Origin: Deltaproteobacteria bacterium
GTDB taxonomy: Bacteria; Myxococcota; Myxococcia; Myxococcales; SZAS-1
DNA: 36,625 nt
Direction: 5' to 3'
Assembly (NCBI GenBank): GCA_018266075.1
Contig: JAFEBB010000074.1
Location: 1-36,625, forward strand
In this document: positions 4,363 to 11,413 of the stretch, in pieces
Layout of the letters: each line of letters begins with the position of its first letter
How positions within the stretch are numbered: position 1 is the stretch's first letter
Translations under genes and position numbers: made by a program
Notes under the pieces: generated by a model
What the model was told of the DNA's origin: nothing
Databases searched by the model: none
The model's input: the letters and a program-made list of their open reading frames with translations, nothing else

Positions 4363-5304
4363 CTAGGCGGGCCGTGTGTCGCCCCTGGGATCGGTCTGAT
4401 CCGGCGCCACCAGCTCCTGCCAGAGGCTCCGCGGCCCCACCGGCGCCACGCCGATCTCGAGGGGCTGCACCGGCGCGGACCGGAAGGTGCCGAAGACGCG
4501 ATCCCAGAGCACCGTGTGGCAGCCAAAGTTCGACTTGCTCTCGCTCACCACCGCCGAGTGGTGCACCTGGTGGTAGCCGGGGAAGTTGATCACCCAGCCG
4601 AGCACGCCCTCGGACACGCGGATGTTCGCGTGCGCGAGGATGCTCAGCACGCTGCCCAGATACACGACCGCGTTCACTTCCTCGAGCCCGGCGCCGAGCA
4701 GCAACAGCGGCGTGCTCCGCGCAATATGAAAGAAAAGGTTATCGACCGGGTGGGTGCGGATGGCCTTGATGCCCGTGAGCTCGGTGATCACGTGGTGGGT
4801 GCTGTGAAAGCGCCACAGCAGCCGGAAGTGGTGCGCCGCCCGGTGCATCCAGTACGACATCAGCTCCACCAGCAAGAACGCGAGCGCCACCCGGAGCCCC
4901 AGCGGCAGCGCGGTGGGCCAGAGCGTCGGCCGGTCGTAGCCGAAGCCGTGCGCGAGCAGCGCCTCCTGGATCCGCCCGAAGCCGAAGGAGATGAGCAGCG
5001 CGCTGCCGAGCGTCACGAAGGTCAGGTAGAAGAGGTCGCGGCCGAAGCGCGAGATGGCGCGCGGCGCGTCGGCGGCGAGGTTGTAGTTCCACGCCGGGTT
5101 CGCCGGGAACAGCTGCTCCACGATCCAGATCAGCGCGATCGACGCGAGCAGCGCCGCGGTGGTGAAGCCCAGCCCCAGCTTCGACGCGGTGAGCGCCCGC
5201 TCCAGCCCCGCGCGCGCCGCCCACCCGCCAATGGCGAGCGCGAGCAGCAGGGGCACGAACGCGTGCCGGAAGATCGCGTGCCCCAGGCCCTGCGGACGTT
5301 CCAT
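4363..5304 (-). CDS. Sterol desaturase / fatty acid hydroxylase family membrane protein
   Basis: 313-residue integral membrane di-iron enzyme candidate. The histidine clusters that bind iron in this superfamily are all present: H154-x3-H158 (HRAAHH), H167-x2-HH (FHSTHH, to residue 171) and H245-x2-HH (YHQVHH, to residue 249). Several hydrophobic helices precede and separate them. The family hydroxylates or desaturates sterols, fatty acids or carotenoids; the substrate here cannot be told. The reading frame runs open for another 297 codons upstream, but that part is antisense to the neighbouring lipoprotein linker and is not real. The ATG at 5304 follows the upstream gene by 14 nt with GAGCG at SD distance, suggesting co-transcription. 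Confidence 0.87.
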   Translation of the reverse strand: MERPQGLGHAIFRHAFVPLLLALAIGGWAARAGLERALTASKLGLGFTTAALLASIALIWIVEQLFPANPAWNYNLAADAPRAISRFGRDLFYLTFVTLGSALLISFGFGRIQEALLAHGFGYDRPTLWPTALPLGLRVALAFLLVELMSYWMHRAAHHFRLLWRFHSTHHVITELTGIKAIRTHPVDNLFFHIARSTPLLLLGAGLEEVNAVVYLGSVLSILAHANIRVSEGVLGWVINFPGYHQVHHSAVVSESKSNFGCHTVLWDRVFGTFRSAPVQPLEIGVAPVGPRSLWQELVAPDQTDPRGDTRPA

Positions 5305-6644: not shown

Positions 6645-8162
<1,518 letters not shown>

Positions 8163-8170
8163 GGATCACC

Positions 8171-8680
8171 ATGCGCTACTTCGCGACCATCACTGGCGAG
8201 AAGAACCCCAAGGCCATCGACGTGGAGCCCCTGCCCGGCGGCCGCTACGCGGTCACGCTCGACGGCACCCGCCACGAGCTCGACGTCATCCACCCCGAGC
8301 CGGGCGTGGTCTCGCTCTTCATCGACGGCGAGAGCTACGCCATCGACATCGAGGACGCGCAGGACAACGTCCTCGTGCAGGTGCGCGACGAGATCTTCAA
8401 CGTCGACGTGGCCGACGAGCGCAAGCTGCGCATGCGCCAGGCCAACCGCGCCGCCACCGCCGAGGGCAAGCAGCTGGTGAAGGCGCCCATGCCCGGCAAG
8501 GTCGTTAAGATTTTGGTTAAGATCGGCGACGAGGTGGCGCAGGGGGCAGGGCTGGTGGTCGTCGAGGCCATGAAGATGGAGAACGAGCTCAAGAGCCCCA
8601 AGGCCGGGAAAGTGACCGAGCTGCTGGTTAAGGAAGGGCAGGCAGTCGAGGGCGGCGCGCCGCTGGCCACCGTCGAGTAA
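8171..8680 (+). CDS. Biotin carboxyl carrier protein
   Basis: 169-residue carrier of the biotin cofactor for the upstream biotin carboxylase. The biotinylation motif EAMKMEN places the target Lys at residue 135, 35 residues from the C-terminus, as in the family. The lipoyl/biotinyl fold spans about residues 95-169, starting at KAPMPGKVVKILVKIGDEV. The first about 90 residues are a beta-rich domain (GGRYAVTLDGTRHELDVI) resembling those of carriers in propionyl-CoA and acyl-CoA carboxylases, and unlike the Pro/Ala-rich N-terminus of E. coli AccB. The ribosome binding site GAGG overlaps the accC stop codon, indicating coupled translation. The coding sequence contains one exact TTAACC-N6-TTAA motif, which creates the unusual GTT codons of VKILVK. 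Confidence 0.9.
   Translation: MRYFATITGEKNPKAIDVEPLPGGRYAVTLDGTRHELDVIHPEPGVVSLFIDGESYAIDIEDAQDNVLVQVRDEIFNVDVADERKLRMRQANRAATAEGKQLVKAPMPGKVVKILVKIGDEVAQGAGLVVVEAMKMENELKSPKAGKVTELLVKEGQAVEGGAPLATVE
8505..8520 (-). other. Bipartite motif TTAACC-N6-TTAA, copy 1
   Basis: On the minus strand this reads TTAACCAAAATCTTAA, an exact copy of a motif found three times in the window. It lies inside the carrier protein gene. A lone TTAACC follows at 8626-8631 (minus strand) without a second half. Function unknown. Confidence 0.5.
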
Positions 8681-8702: not shown

Positions 8703-9782
8703 ATGACCGAACTCCCGCTCCACGCGTTGCACCAGGCCGAGGGCGCCGCTTTCGCCGAGCGCAACGGCCGCGAAGTGCTCGTCACCCAGGGCGCGTCCGC
8801 GGATGCCTTCTGGGCCCTCAAGCGCACGGCTGCCTTGCAGGACCGAACCGGTCGCGGGCTGCTCAAGCTCACCGGACCGGATCGCGAAGAGTTCTTGCAC
8901 GGCCAGACGACGAACGACGTCGAGGGCCTCGCGGTCGGCCACGGCAACGGCGCCGCGCTGCTCACCGCCAGGGGCAAGATGCTGGGCGAGGTGCGGGTGC
9001 TCAAGCGCGCCGAAGATCTCCTCGTCGAGACCGAGCTCGGCTTCGCGGGCGCGGTGAAGCAAGCGCTGGAGCGCAACTGCATCTCGGAAGAGGTCGAGTT
9101 CGCGGATCTCACCGCCGACTACGGGCAGCTCGGGCTCTACGGTCCCGAGGCGCACGCCATCCTCACCGCCGCCCTCGACGCGCCAGCCCCCGGCGTGACC
9201 GAGCACGAGCACCAGACCATCGTCCTCGCGGGTGCCGAGGTGATCGCCATTGGCGCCTGGGGCCCGGGGGCCCCCGGCTACGATCTGCTGGTGCCCGTGG
9301 CCGCGCTCGAGCACGTGTGGAAGGCGCTGCGGGCCGCGGGCCAGGCGAAGAACCTGGTGGTCCTCGGCGAGGAGGCCTACGAGCTCGCGCGCGTGGAGGC
9401 CGGCCTGCCCCGCTACGGCGTGGACATGACCGAGGAGACCAATCCCCTCGAGGCCAACCTCGAGCGCGACATCTCCTACAAGAAGGGCTGCTACGTCGGT
9501 CAGGAGGTCATCGCCAAGGCCACCTTCCGCGGGCACGTGAACAAGAAGCTGGCCCGGCTCTCGTTCGCGGCCGAGCTGCCCGCGCCCGGCGTGGAGCTGC
9601 AGCTCGACGGCCGCGTCGTCGGGAAGGTCACCAGCGCCGCGCAGCTGCCCGACGGTCGCAAGCTCGGCCTCGGCTACGTGAAGCGCGACCTGGCCAAGGC
9701 CGGCGTGGCCCTGACGGTCGCGGGCGGCGGCGTGGCCGAGACGCTGGGCCTGGCTCAGCCCGTCGAGCTCCAGCGGCCATGA
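8703..9782 (+). CDS. ygfZ: YgfZ/GcvT-like folate-binding protein
   Basis: 359-residue cytoplasmic protein of the YgfZ branch of the aminomethyltransferase family. The signature K-G-C-Y-x-G-Q-E is at residues 261-268 with the conserved Cys at 263. Members bind folate and support assembly or repair of certain iron-sulfur enzymes. The N-terminal GcvT-like region (LHGQTTNDVEGL, near residues 65-75) and a C-terminal barrel are both present, so it looks complete. The start is an ATG with GAGG at 5-nt spacing. It sits 22 nt after the biotin carrier gene and overlaps the next gene by ATGA. The link to the carboxylase is positional only. Confidence 0.85.
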   Translation: MTELPLHALHQAEGAAFAERNGREVLVTQGASADAFWALKRTAALQDRTGRGLLKLTGPDREEFLHGQTTNDVEGLAVGHGNGAALLTARGKMLGEVRVLKRAEDLLVETELGFAGAVKQALERNCISEEVEFADLTADYGQLGLYGPEAHAILTAALDAPAPGVTEHEHQTIVLAGAEVIAIGAWGPGAPGYDLLVPVAALEHVWKALRAAGQAKNLVVLGEEAYELARVEAGLPRYGVDMTEETNPLEANLERDISYKKGCYVGQEVIAKATFRGHVNKKLARLSFAAELPAPGVELQLDGRVVGKVTSAAQLPDGRKLGLGYVKRDLAKAGVALTVAGGGVAETLGLAQPVELQRP

Positions 9783-10102
9783 TCCTCATCGTCGGCGCGA
9801 ATCTGATGTTCGCCTCCAAGATCCTGGAGACCGCGCGCGCGCTCGGGCTCTCGGCAGCTCAGGCTGCGCCGGACTCCGCCGAGCTCGGCAACGCCAAGCT
9901 GGTGCTGCTCGATCTGGAGAAGCTCGGCGCCGACGGCGTGCGCGCCCTGCGCGAGCGCACCAAGGCGCGCCTCGTGGGCTACGCGAGCCACGTGGCCGAC
10001 GACGCCCTCTCGGCGGCGCGCGCAGCCGGCTGCGACGAGGTCCTCACCCGCGGACAATTCTCCGCTCGCTTACCGCAGCTGCTCTCCGGAGCCACCGCGT
10101 GA
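9779..10102 (+). CDS. Receiver-like small protein lacking the acidic pocket
   Basis: 107-residue cytoplasmic protein, recognised only as a fold. The layout follows a CheY-like receiver: strand 1 MILIVGANLMF, strand 3 KLVLLDLEKLG, strand 4 RLVGYASHVADD and strand 5 DEVLTRGQF. The usual strand-1 acidic pair is missing (GAN instead). D45 could be the phospho-acceptor or a remnant, S70 sits where Thr/Ser is expected, and R91 replaces the conserved Lys. A pseudo-receiver that does not rely on normal phosphorylation is therefore likely. It overlaps ygfZ by ATGA and the next gene by GTGA, so it is translated with the operon. No partner kinase or output domain is nearby. Fold assignment is moderate; function is unknown. 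Confidence 0.6.
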   Translation: MILIVGANLMFASKILETARALGLSAAQAAPDSAELGNAKLVLLDLEKLGADGVRALRERTKARLVGYASHVADDALSAARAAGCDEVLTRGQFSARLPQLLSGATA

Positions 10103-10536
10103 AGCCCGGCTACCCCGACCAGCTTCTGACACGCGCGGGCGAGGCCTTCCACCACCTCCACCTCCTCCGCGACGCGGATTCGCACACCGGCGTGCTGGGG
10201 GTGGCCGCGATTGGCGTGTTCTCGCTGTCGGTGGGGCTGATCCTGGCGAGCCGGATCTTCGCGCAGGTGAGCACGGGCGTGCTGGTAAGCCTGGCGCTGG
10301 TGATGGTGGGCGTGCCCGTGCTCTTCGACGCCATCCGCTTCCAAATCGGGCCCGTACCGCCCGTGGGACAGCTCGCGCTCATCCTGGCGCCCGCAGGGAT
10401 CGTGGTCTACGTGGCCAAGGCGATGCTCGACACCGGCACGCCGCGCGCCCTGGGCGTGATGGCCGTTGGCTCGTTCTTCGGCGGGCTCATCGCGACGCTC
10501 TTGGCGCTCGCGGTGCAGCTCAGCGACGCGATTTAG
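10099..10536 (+). CDS. Small integral membrane protein
   Basis: 145-residue protein of unknown function. After a hydrophilic start (MKPGYPDQLLTRAGEAFHHLHLLRD) there are about four hydrophobic segments: GVAAIGVFSLSVGLILAS, GVLVSLALVMVGVPVLF, LALILAPAGIVVYVA and AVGSFFGGLIATLLALAVQL. No enzymatic motif is visible. The start codon is GTG, overlapping the previous stop as GTGA, with GGAG 7 nt upstream. It is the last gene of the carboxylase operon. Its 3' end overlaps the convergent exonuclease gene by 17 bp. Confidence 0.7.
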   Translation: MKPGYPDQLLTRAGEAFHHLHLLRDADSHTGVLGVAAIGVFSLSVGLILASRIFAQVSTGVLVSLALVMVGVPVLFDAIRFQIGPVPPVGQLALILAPAGIVVYVAKAMLDTGTPRALGVMAVGSFFGGLIATLLALAVQLSDAI

Positions 10537-11413
10537 TTAACGCTTTGGTTAACGTTCGCGACGCAGCCACGGCCACCTCGGGTGCGTGTGCGGCGCGCTT
10601 GGGGAGCTGGCCCACCGGGCGCAGCGAGCGGATGCGATCGAGCCGGAACTGCTTCTCCCGCTTGTCGCGGTGGCAATAGGCGATGAGGTAGCTCGCCGGG
10701 CCGATGCGCGTGAGCCCCTTGGGCGTCACCGGGCGCGGCAGCTCGCCCTGGGTGCCGCCGTCGTACTCGATGTTCACGCGGTGCCCCAGCTCGATGAGCT
10801 CGGGCAGGCTGCTGAGCGTGCGCGGGAGCTGCACTGCGCCCACCGCGCACATCGAGAGCGGGAACGGCGACGCGGCCTTGGCCAGCGTGCGCCAGTCGGT
10901 CGCGCGCGCCCGCTGCGAGAGCGCCAGGAACACGCCCATGGCCGTATTGGCGTCGAGCGCGGCCCGGTGCGCGCCCTTGGGCCGCAGGTGGAAGTAGCGC
11001 GCGACCGTCGTCAGCCGGAAGTCGCGCAGCCGCAGCACCGAGCGCGCCCAATCCAGCGTGTCGATCATCTGCAGCTCGGGCAGCTTGTTGCGCCCGCGCT
11101 CGAGCTCGGCGGCCACGAAGCTGCCGTCGAAGAGCGCGTTGTGGGCCACCAGCACGGCGCCGTCCACGAACTCCAGGAAGCGCTCGATGACCTCACTGGC
11201 CGGCGCGGCGTGCGCGACCATGGCGTCGGTGATGCCGGTGATCTCGGTGACCTCGGAGGGAATGGGGTGGCCGGGCGAGCAGAGTTCCTCGAAGCGCGCC
11301 TCCACGGTCCCGTCGATCCGGAACGCCACCCCCGCGATCTCCGTGAGCCGACAACCCTCGGGGGAGAGCCCCGTGGTCTCGACGTCGAACGCAACGAAAC
11401 GCTCCCTCACCAC
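10520..11413 (-). CDS. DnaQ-like 3'-5' exonuclease fused to a WYL-like domain
   Basis: Up to 297 residues. Residues 5-168 are a DEDDh exonuclease with all catalytic residues: D10 and E12 in FDVETTG, D96 in HNALFDG, and H149 and D154 in GAHRAALDA. Residues about 208-270 look like a WYL ligand- or nucleic-acid-sensing domain, ending in KQFRLDRIRSL, which is typical for WYL; the core triplet is SYL. Such a fusion suggests a nuclease whose activity responds to a ligand. The start is GTG-GTG; GGGAGG lies 3 nt before the first and 6 nt before the second (11410), so the second is preferable. Two rare TTA Leu codons near the 3' end belong to a TTAACC-N6-TTAA motif. Confidence 0.82.
   Translation of the reverse strand: MVRERFVAFDVETTGLSPEGCRLTEIAGVAFRIDGTVEARFEELCSPGHPIPSEVTEITGITDAMVAHAAPASEVIERFLEFVDGAVLVAHNALFDGSFVAAELERGRNKLPELQMIDTLDWARSVLRLRDFRLTTVARYFHLRPKGAHRAALDANTAMGVFLALSQRARATDWRTLAKAASPFPLSMCAVGAVQLPRTLSSLPELIELGHRVNIEYDGGTQGELPRPVTPKGLTRIGPASYLIAYCHRDKREKQFRLDRIRSLRPVGQLPKRAAHAPEVAVAASRTLTKALTKSRR
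10537..10552 (-). other. Bipartite motif TTAACC-N6-TTAA, copy 2
   Basis: The minus strand reads TTAACCAAAGCGTTAA, an exact copy. It begins one base after the stop of the small membrane protein gene and lies within the last codons of the exonuclease gene, where it encodes LTKALT using two TTA codons. Confidence 0.5.

Follow-up and report, generated by a model that had tools for sequence, protein, structure and literature searches.

RecL, a stand-alone pseudo-receiver encoded next to ygfZ in Myxococcota, and its possible part in Fe-S cluster maturation

Introduction

Which protein does the small receiver-like product of recL serve, given that its gene stands in a row with genes for a biotin carboxylase, a biotin carboxyl carrier protein and YgfZ? 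The window, by which we mean the whole 36,625-nt stretch of DNA analyzed here, contains five plus-strand genes separated by small gaps, in the order biotin carboxylase, carrier, ygfZ, recL and a gene for a 145-aa protein (Table 1). YgfZ is a bacterial IBA57-like factor that helps to put [4Fe-4S] clusters into client enzymes. The initial annotation had proposed a regulatory or chaperone-like partner of acyl-CoA carboxylase, while the comparison of loci described below suggests that RecL helps or tunes the making of Fe-S proteins, and not a carboxylase.

The recL locus

Judged from sequence comparison, recL is a genuine gene beyond chance, since homologues at 31–46% identity were found in two phyla. 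Among the relatives, 28 pairs from one family have a median dN/dS of 0.23, and 105 pairs from a second family have a median of 0.49, with some values close to 0.9. As annotated initially, recL overlaps its neighbors by 4 bp on both sides: an ATGA is shared with ygfZ upstream, and a GTGA (10099–10102) joins the recL stop to the start of the unnamed downstream gene. The window YgfZ passes the NCBIfam model TIGR03317 (82.2 bits, cut-off 49), matches PF01571 (GCV_T, 1.3e-39) and carries the KGCYVGQE motif. The 145-aa protein has no Pfam or NCBIfam match, is probably a membrane protein (a label given by eye), and has homologues in only 1 of 60 related genomes, namely that of the window itself. A convergent gene follows it (10520–11413, minus strand), encoding RNase_T exonuclease and WYL domains in one 297-aa protein.

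Table 1. Features of the window around recL (all on the plus strand).
Feature	Position	Strand	Description	Basis
biotin carboxylase subunit (accC-like)	6645-8162	+		NF006367, 643.5 bits
biotin carboxyl carrier protein	8171-8680	+		PF00364, 2.4e-21
ygfZ	8703-9782	+	CAF17/IBA57-like Fe-S cluster assembly protein, upstream of recL	
ATGA, ygfZ/recL stop-start overlap	9779-9782	+		sequence
recL (name coined here)	9779-10102	+	stand-alone pseudo-receiver, 107 aa	ORF and translation, model, PDB matches
unnamed protein	10099-10536	+	145 aa; GTG start; 4-nt overlap with recL stop	

Distribution of the RecL family

The stand-alone pseudo-receivers to which RecL belongs form an unnamed family. With the A2 profile the family was identified in 38 of 195 Myxococcota genomes (9.0e-32 or better), clearly set off from the next Myxococcota match (7.2e-14), which was read as ordinary receivers. 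It was also found in 14 of 199 Planctomycetota genomes at E 1e-18 and in 51 of 392 at E 1e-16, the larger set including the first 199. A peptide pattern scan reaching beyond these two phyla, which responds only to peptides almost identical to those of the window protein, returned 14 loci labeled Myxococcota, Planctomycetota or, once, Deltaproteobacteria.

The 102 loci obtained yielded 91 distinct sequences, and addition of the window copy and removal of L068 left 91 for the conservation count. L068 (G059, matched at E 9.2e-5) is a separate receiver-like protein that still stands in the tree, where a very long branch joins it to the window sequence as a pair; the exact tree place of the latter is therefore not relied on. 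Tree support is modest for a 107-aa protein. L050 and L066, the pair from f6, are placed among Planctomycetota at a low support of 0.45.

Pairing of recL with ygfZ in Myxococcota

Conserved gene coupling, by which a YgfZ-associated protein would be recognized, was found in 16 of the 38 Myxococcota genomes with recL, in none of the 20 f5 genomes and, outside this phylum, in G398. In the 16 genomes (the window, G003, G005, G006, G008, G012, G013, G018, G019, G026, G029, G035, G038, G041, G044, and G047), ygfZ lies directly upstream of recL on the same strand; these pairs are counts of related genomes and not independent, as the five families concerned (f1, f4, f6, f7, and f9) may share one ancestral pairing. 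In one further genome (G032), recL stands behind a ygfZ and is cut by the contig end. Neighboring genes were delimited with a simple script based on codon usage, which could miss several short ones, and TIGR03317 independently places ygfZ at the recL-adjacent sites. The 4-nt overlap, ATGA or GTGA, recurs in 13 of the 16 pairs (12 of 15 without the window), the remaining pairs being separated by 54 nt (L050), ~68 nt (L067) or a larger distance (L054).

The pair persists in three different outer contexts. An isocitrate-dehydrogenase-like gene (a label by eye) precedes it in f6 and f9; another common upstream gene and a downstream gene flank it in f4 and f7; and the window has neither of these contexts, its pair being accompanied by the carboxylase genes. 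Genes for YgfZ were detected by the curated model in 55 of 60 relatives, mostly as a single copy and with or without recL; thus, the link between the two genes is one of position and not of joint presence. Nearly all f3 genomes have ygfZ and lack the recL family, which counts against RecL being an accessory of YgfZ. Likewise, G014 (L121) keeps ygfZ without recL, so recL is dispensable; its relative G019, of the same genus, has the pair. Either recL was cleanly lost from G014 or its absence is due to a gap in the assembly.

None of the 20 f5 genomes has ygfZ beside recL, nor do two others (G070 and G183), which also counts against RecL being an accessory of YgfZ. The f5 family was labeled Anaeromyxobacteraceae by eye, a label supported by the named loci L003, L005–L007, and L009, which lie in the same contigs. 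Its genomes were counted by genome handle, and for neighboring genes the following loci are duplicates: L002 and L053, L003 and L090, L005 and L058, L006 and L062, L007 and L071, L009 and L087, L010 and L065, L012 and L088, and L013 and L073. In three f5 genera the next gene after recL encodes either a glutaredoxin or a thioredoxin (L002, 6404–6679; L005, L010, L012, L013, L061, and L069).

Contexts of recL in Planctomycetota

Only 2 of the 55 Planctomycetota loci have ygfZ adjoining recL, and one of these ygfZ genes is a remnant, which again speaks against a YgfZ accessory. In G398 the order is reversed, with ygfZ downstream of recL and the two genes overlapping by 11 nt, an order seen in none of the Myxococcota loci read. 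A SUF operon begins 0.45 kb past this ygfZ, after one opposite-strand gene, and comprises the SUF regulator, sufB, sufC (by eye), sufD, sufS, sufU, an unnamed gene, and sufT. In G478 (L139, 1848–2207) the order is recL-ygfZ, the latter reduced to a 119-aa remnant with its central part missing. The recL genes of both genomes group beside the Myxococcota clade (tree support 0.89), which may reflect transfer from one phylum to the other or an ancient origin.

The genes lipA and bioB directly precede recL in two loci, in the orders lipA-bioB-recL (L120) and bioB-lipA-recL (L172); the two recL copies form a sister pair with a tree support of 1.00 and are therefore counted as one event. In L118, lipA is one gene further from recL. 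SUF genes near recL were found in only 1 of the 102 loci, a scarcity that weighs against an Fe-S accessory, and SufC matches in L002, L005, L053, L055, and L058 were read as generic ABC ATPases.

The second recurrent pairing of the family is with P-II, whose gene lies directly upstream of recL in 14 of the 55 Planctomycetota loci (L001, L004, L008, L011, L014, L119, L142, L144, L147, L148, L152–L154, and L160), with a 4-nt overlap in L014 (5651–5998). An unnamed gene encoding 128 aa occupies the same position in 11 loci (L108, L112 at 4527–4913, L113, L140, L141, L146, L149, L155, L158, L161, and L167); it has no NCBIfam match and looked SnoaL-like by eye. These other neighbors, too, weigh against a YgfZ accessory. 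In the remaining 26 loci, L118 included, none of the seven gene types checked stands directly beside recL.

This variety could mean that RecL is a generic small adaptor that takes a different partner in each operon, YgfZ in the window and P-II or others in Planctomycetota, with no common role in Fe-S chemistry, the conserved coupling then reflecting slow operon decay. The upstream P-II gene, once with its 4-nt overlap, the 128-aa gene and the varied contexts of f5 all agree with such an adaptor. We nevertheless hold it to be rather unlikely, since recL is found paired with ygfZ in two phyla and in either gene order, other recL loci contain lipA/bioB and SUF genes, and the ygfZ-recL pair stayed together while its outer neighbors changed.

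Predicted fold and altered active site

The predicted fold of RecL is that of a receiver. The AlphaFold2 model, computed from an alignment of 14 sequences, has a pLDDT of 92.5 and a pTM of 0.85 and follows the (beta-alpha)5 order of receiver elements, and its list of Foldseek matches in the PDB is filled by receivers. By VIA-align the best match is Spo0F (6ifh; Z 14.2, rmsd 2.1, 107 residues aligned), with NtrC4 (3dzd) at Z 13.9, rmsd 2.1 and 106 residues; the best 50 rows all have Z of at least 12.6 and are nearly all response-regulator receivers. This bears out the receiver likeness suggested initially. The 20-member family profile (A2) matched NtrC1 at 6.1e-8 together with many receivers of the PDB, two designed proteins that topped this list being uninformative. 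The window RecL itself has no Pfam or NCBIfam match; in particular, Pfam Response_reg does not match it at E 1 or 0.1, and matches 12 of the 20 A2 members, the best at 5.6e-9.

Active-site positions were assigned by profile alignment to NtrC1. In the window RecL the acidic-pair positions hold Gly6-Ala7, with Asn8 next to them, Ala69 takes the place of the Ser/Thr and Arg91 that of the Lys, and the phospho-acceptor Asp45 is retained; both replacements reported at the outset, of the strand-1 acidic pair by GAN and of the conserved Lys by Arg, were thus recovered. With differences at four of the five receiver catalytic residues, RecL is a pseudo-receiver as the term is used in PMC12632262. It keeps Asp45 alone out of the acidic pair, Asp, Ser/Thr and Lys that a phosphorylatable receiver needs all together, and it is not an aspartate-less receiver, the family having Asp (87/91) or Glu (4/91) at this position. 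The model places N8, D45, H71, and R91 at the ends of strands 1, 3, 4, and 5 or immediately beyond them, where the phosphorylation site of a receiver sits.

Two positions are invariant in the 91 family sequences, His71 and Gly84 (91/91 each), and Asp8 is nearly so (89/91), Asn at position 8 being confined to the window copy. Arg or Lys at position 91 is found in 79 of 91 sequences and Gly at 92 in 74, whereas the acidic-pair columns are mostly non-acidic. The 91-sequence count is a fairer measure of conservation than alignment A1, in which the invariance of DEVLTRGQ is partly a search artefact, such a peptide being among the search patterns. Since the family keeps a residue set of its own (Asp8, Asp45, His71, Gly84, and Arg/Lys91-Gly92), the altered site is maintained and not decaying; it is a family trait that is not tied to a carboxylase.

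RecL might still work as an ordinary response regulator of a single domain, with Asp45 phosphorylated by a kinase encoded elsewhere in the genome. This would be allowed by the Asp (87/91) or Glu (4/91) at position 45 and by the gene immediately ahead of recL in some f5 loci (L010, L013, L061, and L069), which by eye resembles one for a response regulator. The active-site residues disfavor this reading, and we regard it as quite improbable: the window copy has none of the acidic pair, Ser/Thr and Lys, whose loss argues against phosphorylation of RecL, and non-acidic residues prevail in the pair columns across the family.

Carboxylase genes of the window

The carboxylase and carrier genes are separated from each other by 8 nt and the carrier gene from ygfZ by 22 nt, with no overlaps among them. 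Given the common strand, these short gaps and the two overlaps farther on, the genes probably form one operon with recL in this genome, which would suit a regulator or chaperone-like partner of a biotin-dependent acyl-CoA carboxylase. Tight overlaps do couple recL to its neighbors, as had been claimed; however, those neighbors are ygfZ and the downstream gene, not the carboxylase genes. Moreover, no biotin carboxylase or carrier homologue was detected in 80 other loci, these being recL and/or ygfZ neighborhoods of Myxococcota and Planctomycetota, mostly ~6 kb on each side, of which some are cut by contig ends and some represent the same genome twice. In the same tblastn search (E 0.01) the downstream and exonuclease proteins of the window were likewise unmatched. 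Conservation of the five-gene order across Myxococcota, the check set beforehand, was not found, and only ygfZ stays with recL. A carboxylase partner is therefore rejected by gene order as very improbable.

Proposed role of RecL

The location of recL with ygfZ, once with suf genes, once with lipA/bioB and, in f5, with glutaredoxin or thioredoxin genes points to Fe-S maturation, and a link between RecL and YgfZ in this process is likely. With a probability that we put somewhat below one-half (about 0.45), RecL is a single-domain pseudo-receiver serving as a phosphorylation-independent accessory of YgfZ in Fe-S maturation. The evidence for the link is positional; binding and sensing are proposed in addition. 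RecL may bind YgfZ or a YgfZ client, and translational coupling would keep the amounts of the two proteins in step. The set of Asp8, Asp45, His71, and Arg/Lys91-Gly92 at the C-terminal ends of the strands could form a pocket for a small ligand, or an interface, and RecL might read a ligand at the former phosphorylation site. It would tune how clusters are transferred or repaired, perhaps in enzymes that insert sulfur, LipA and BioB among them.

A bolder version of this accessory role, which we consider improbable as a whole, is that the family has left two-component signaling and is now a dedicated part of Fe-S maturation, docking on YgfZ or on clients of the LipA/BioB type and reading a metabolite or metal through the Asp-Asp-His-Arg set, so that cluster insertion or repair would be coupled to the state of the cell; in Planctomycetota, this input would be read together with P-II.

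As described in PMC10002905, IBA57 promotes [4Fe-4S] assembly and insertion, YgfZ is needed for the activity of MiaB and RimO, and the working of YgfZ in bacterial Fe-S metabolism is called uncharacterized. A review of pseudo-receivers discusses protein contacts and ligand binding as alternative means of control and calls their switching a mystery (PMC12632262). With a stand-alone pseudo-receiver translationally coupled to ygfZ, both questions meet in a small system of two proteins that is open to testing.

Comparison with known systems

The closest folds to RecL, receivers of the Spo0F/NtrC type, share only 16–17% identity with it. These receivers carry the catalytic residues, unlike RecL. 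Caulobacter FixT (PMC7078487) resembles RecL in being a single receiver domain that acts as an auxiliary protein with a tie to Fe-S chemistry, and differs in having a 4-Cys Fe-S motif and in inhibiting a histidine kinase; no conserved kinase neighbor was seen in the recL loci read. That RecL is a redox or Fe-S sensor binding a cluster of its own, as FixT does, would suit neighbors tied to Fe-S and thiol chemistry, but is hardly tenable and is rejected by cysteine counts, as cysteines are not conserved in the family, 57 of its 91 members contain one at most, and the window copy has a single Cys and no 4-Cys motif.

Our literature search of open-licence PMC papers found no prior report of a receiver-like partner of YgfZ, and a word search of PMC12632262 returned neither "iron" nor "Fe-S". 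The bacterial pseudo-receivers treated there (Bourret et al., 2025) are like RecL in having a receiver fold with an incomplete set of the five catalytic residues and in possibly acting through protein contacts or ligands. RecL is set apart from them by its own Asp8/His71/Arg91-Gly92 set and by the coupling of its gene to ygfZ.
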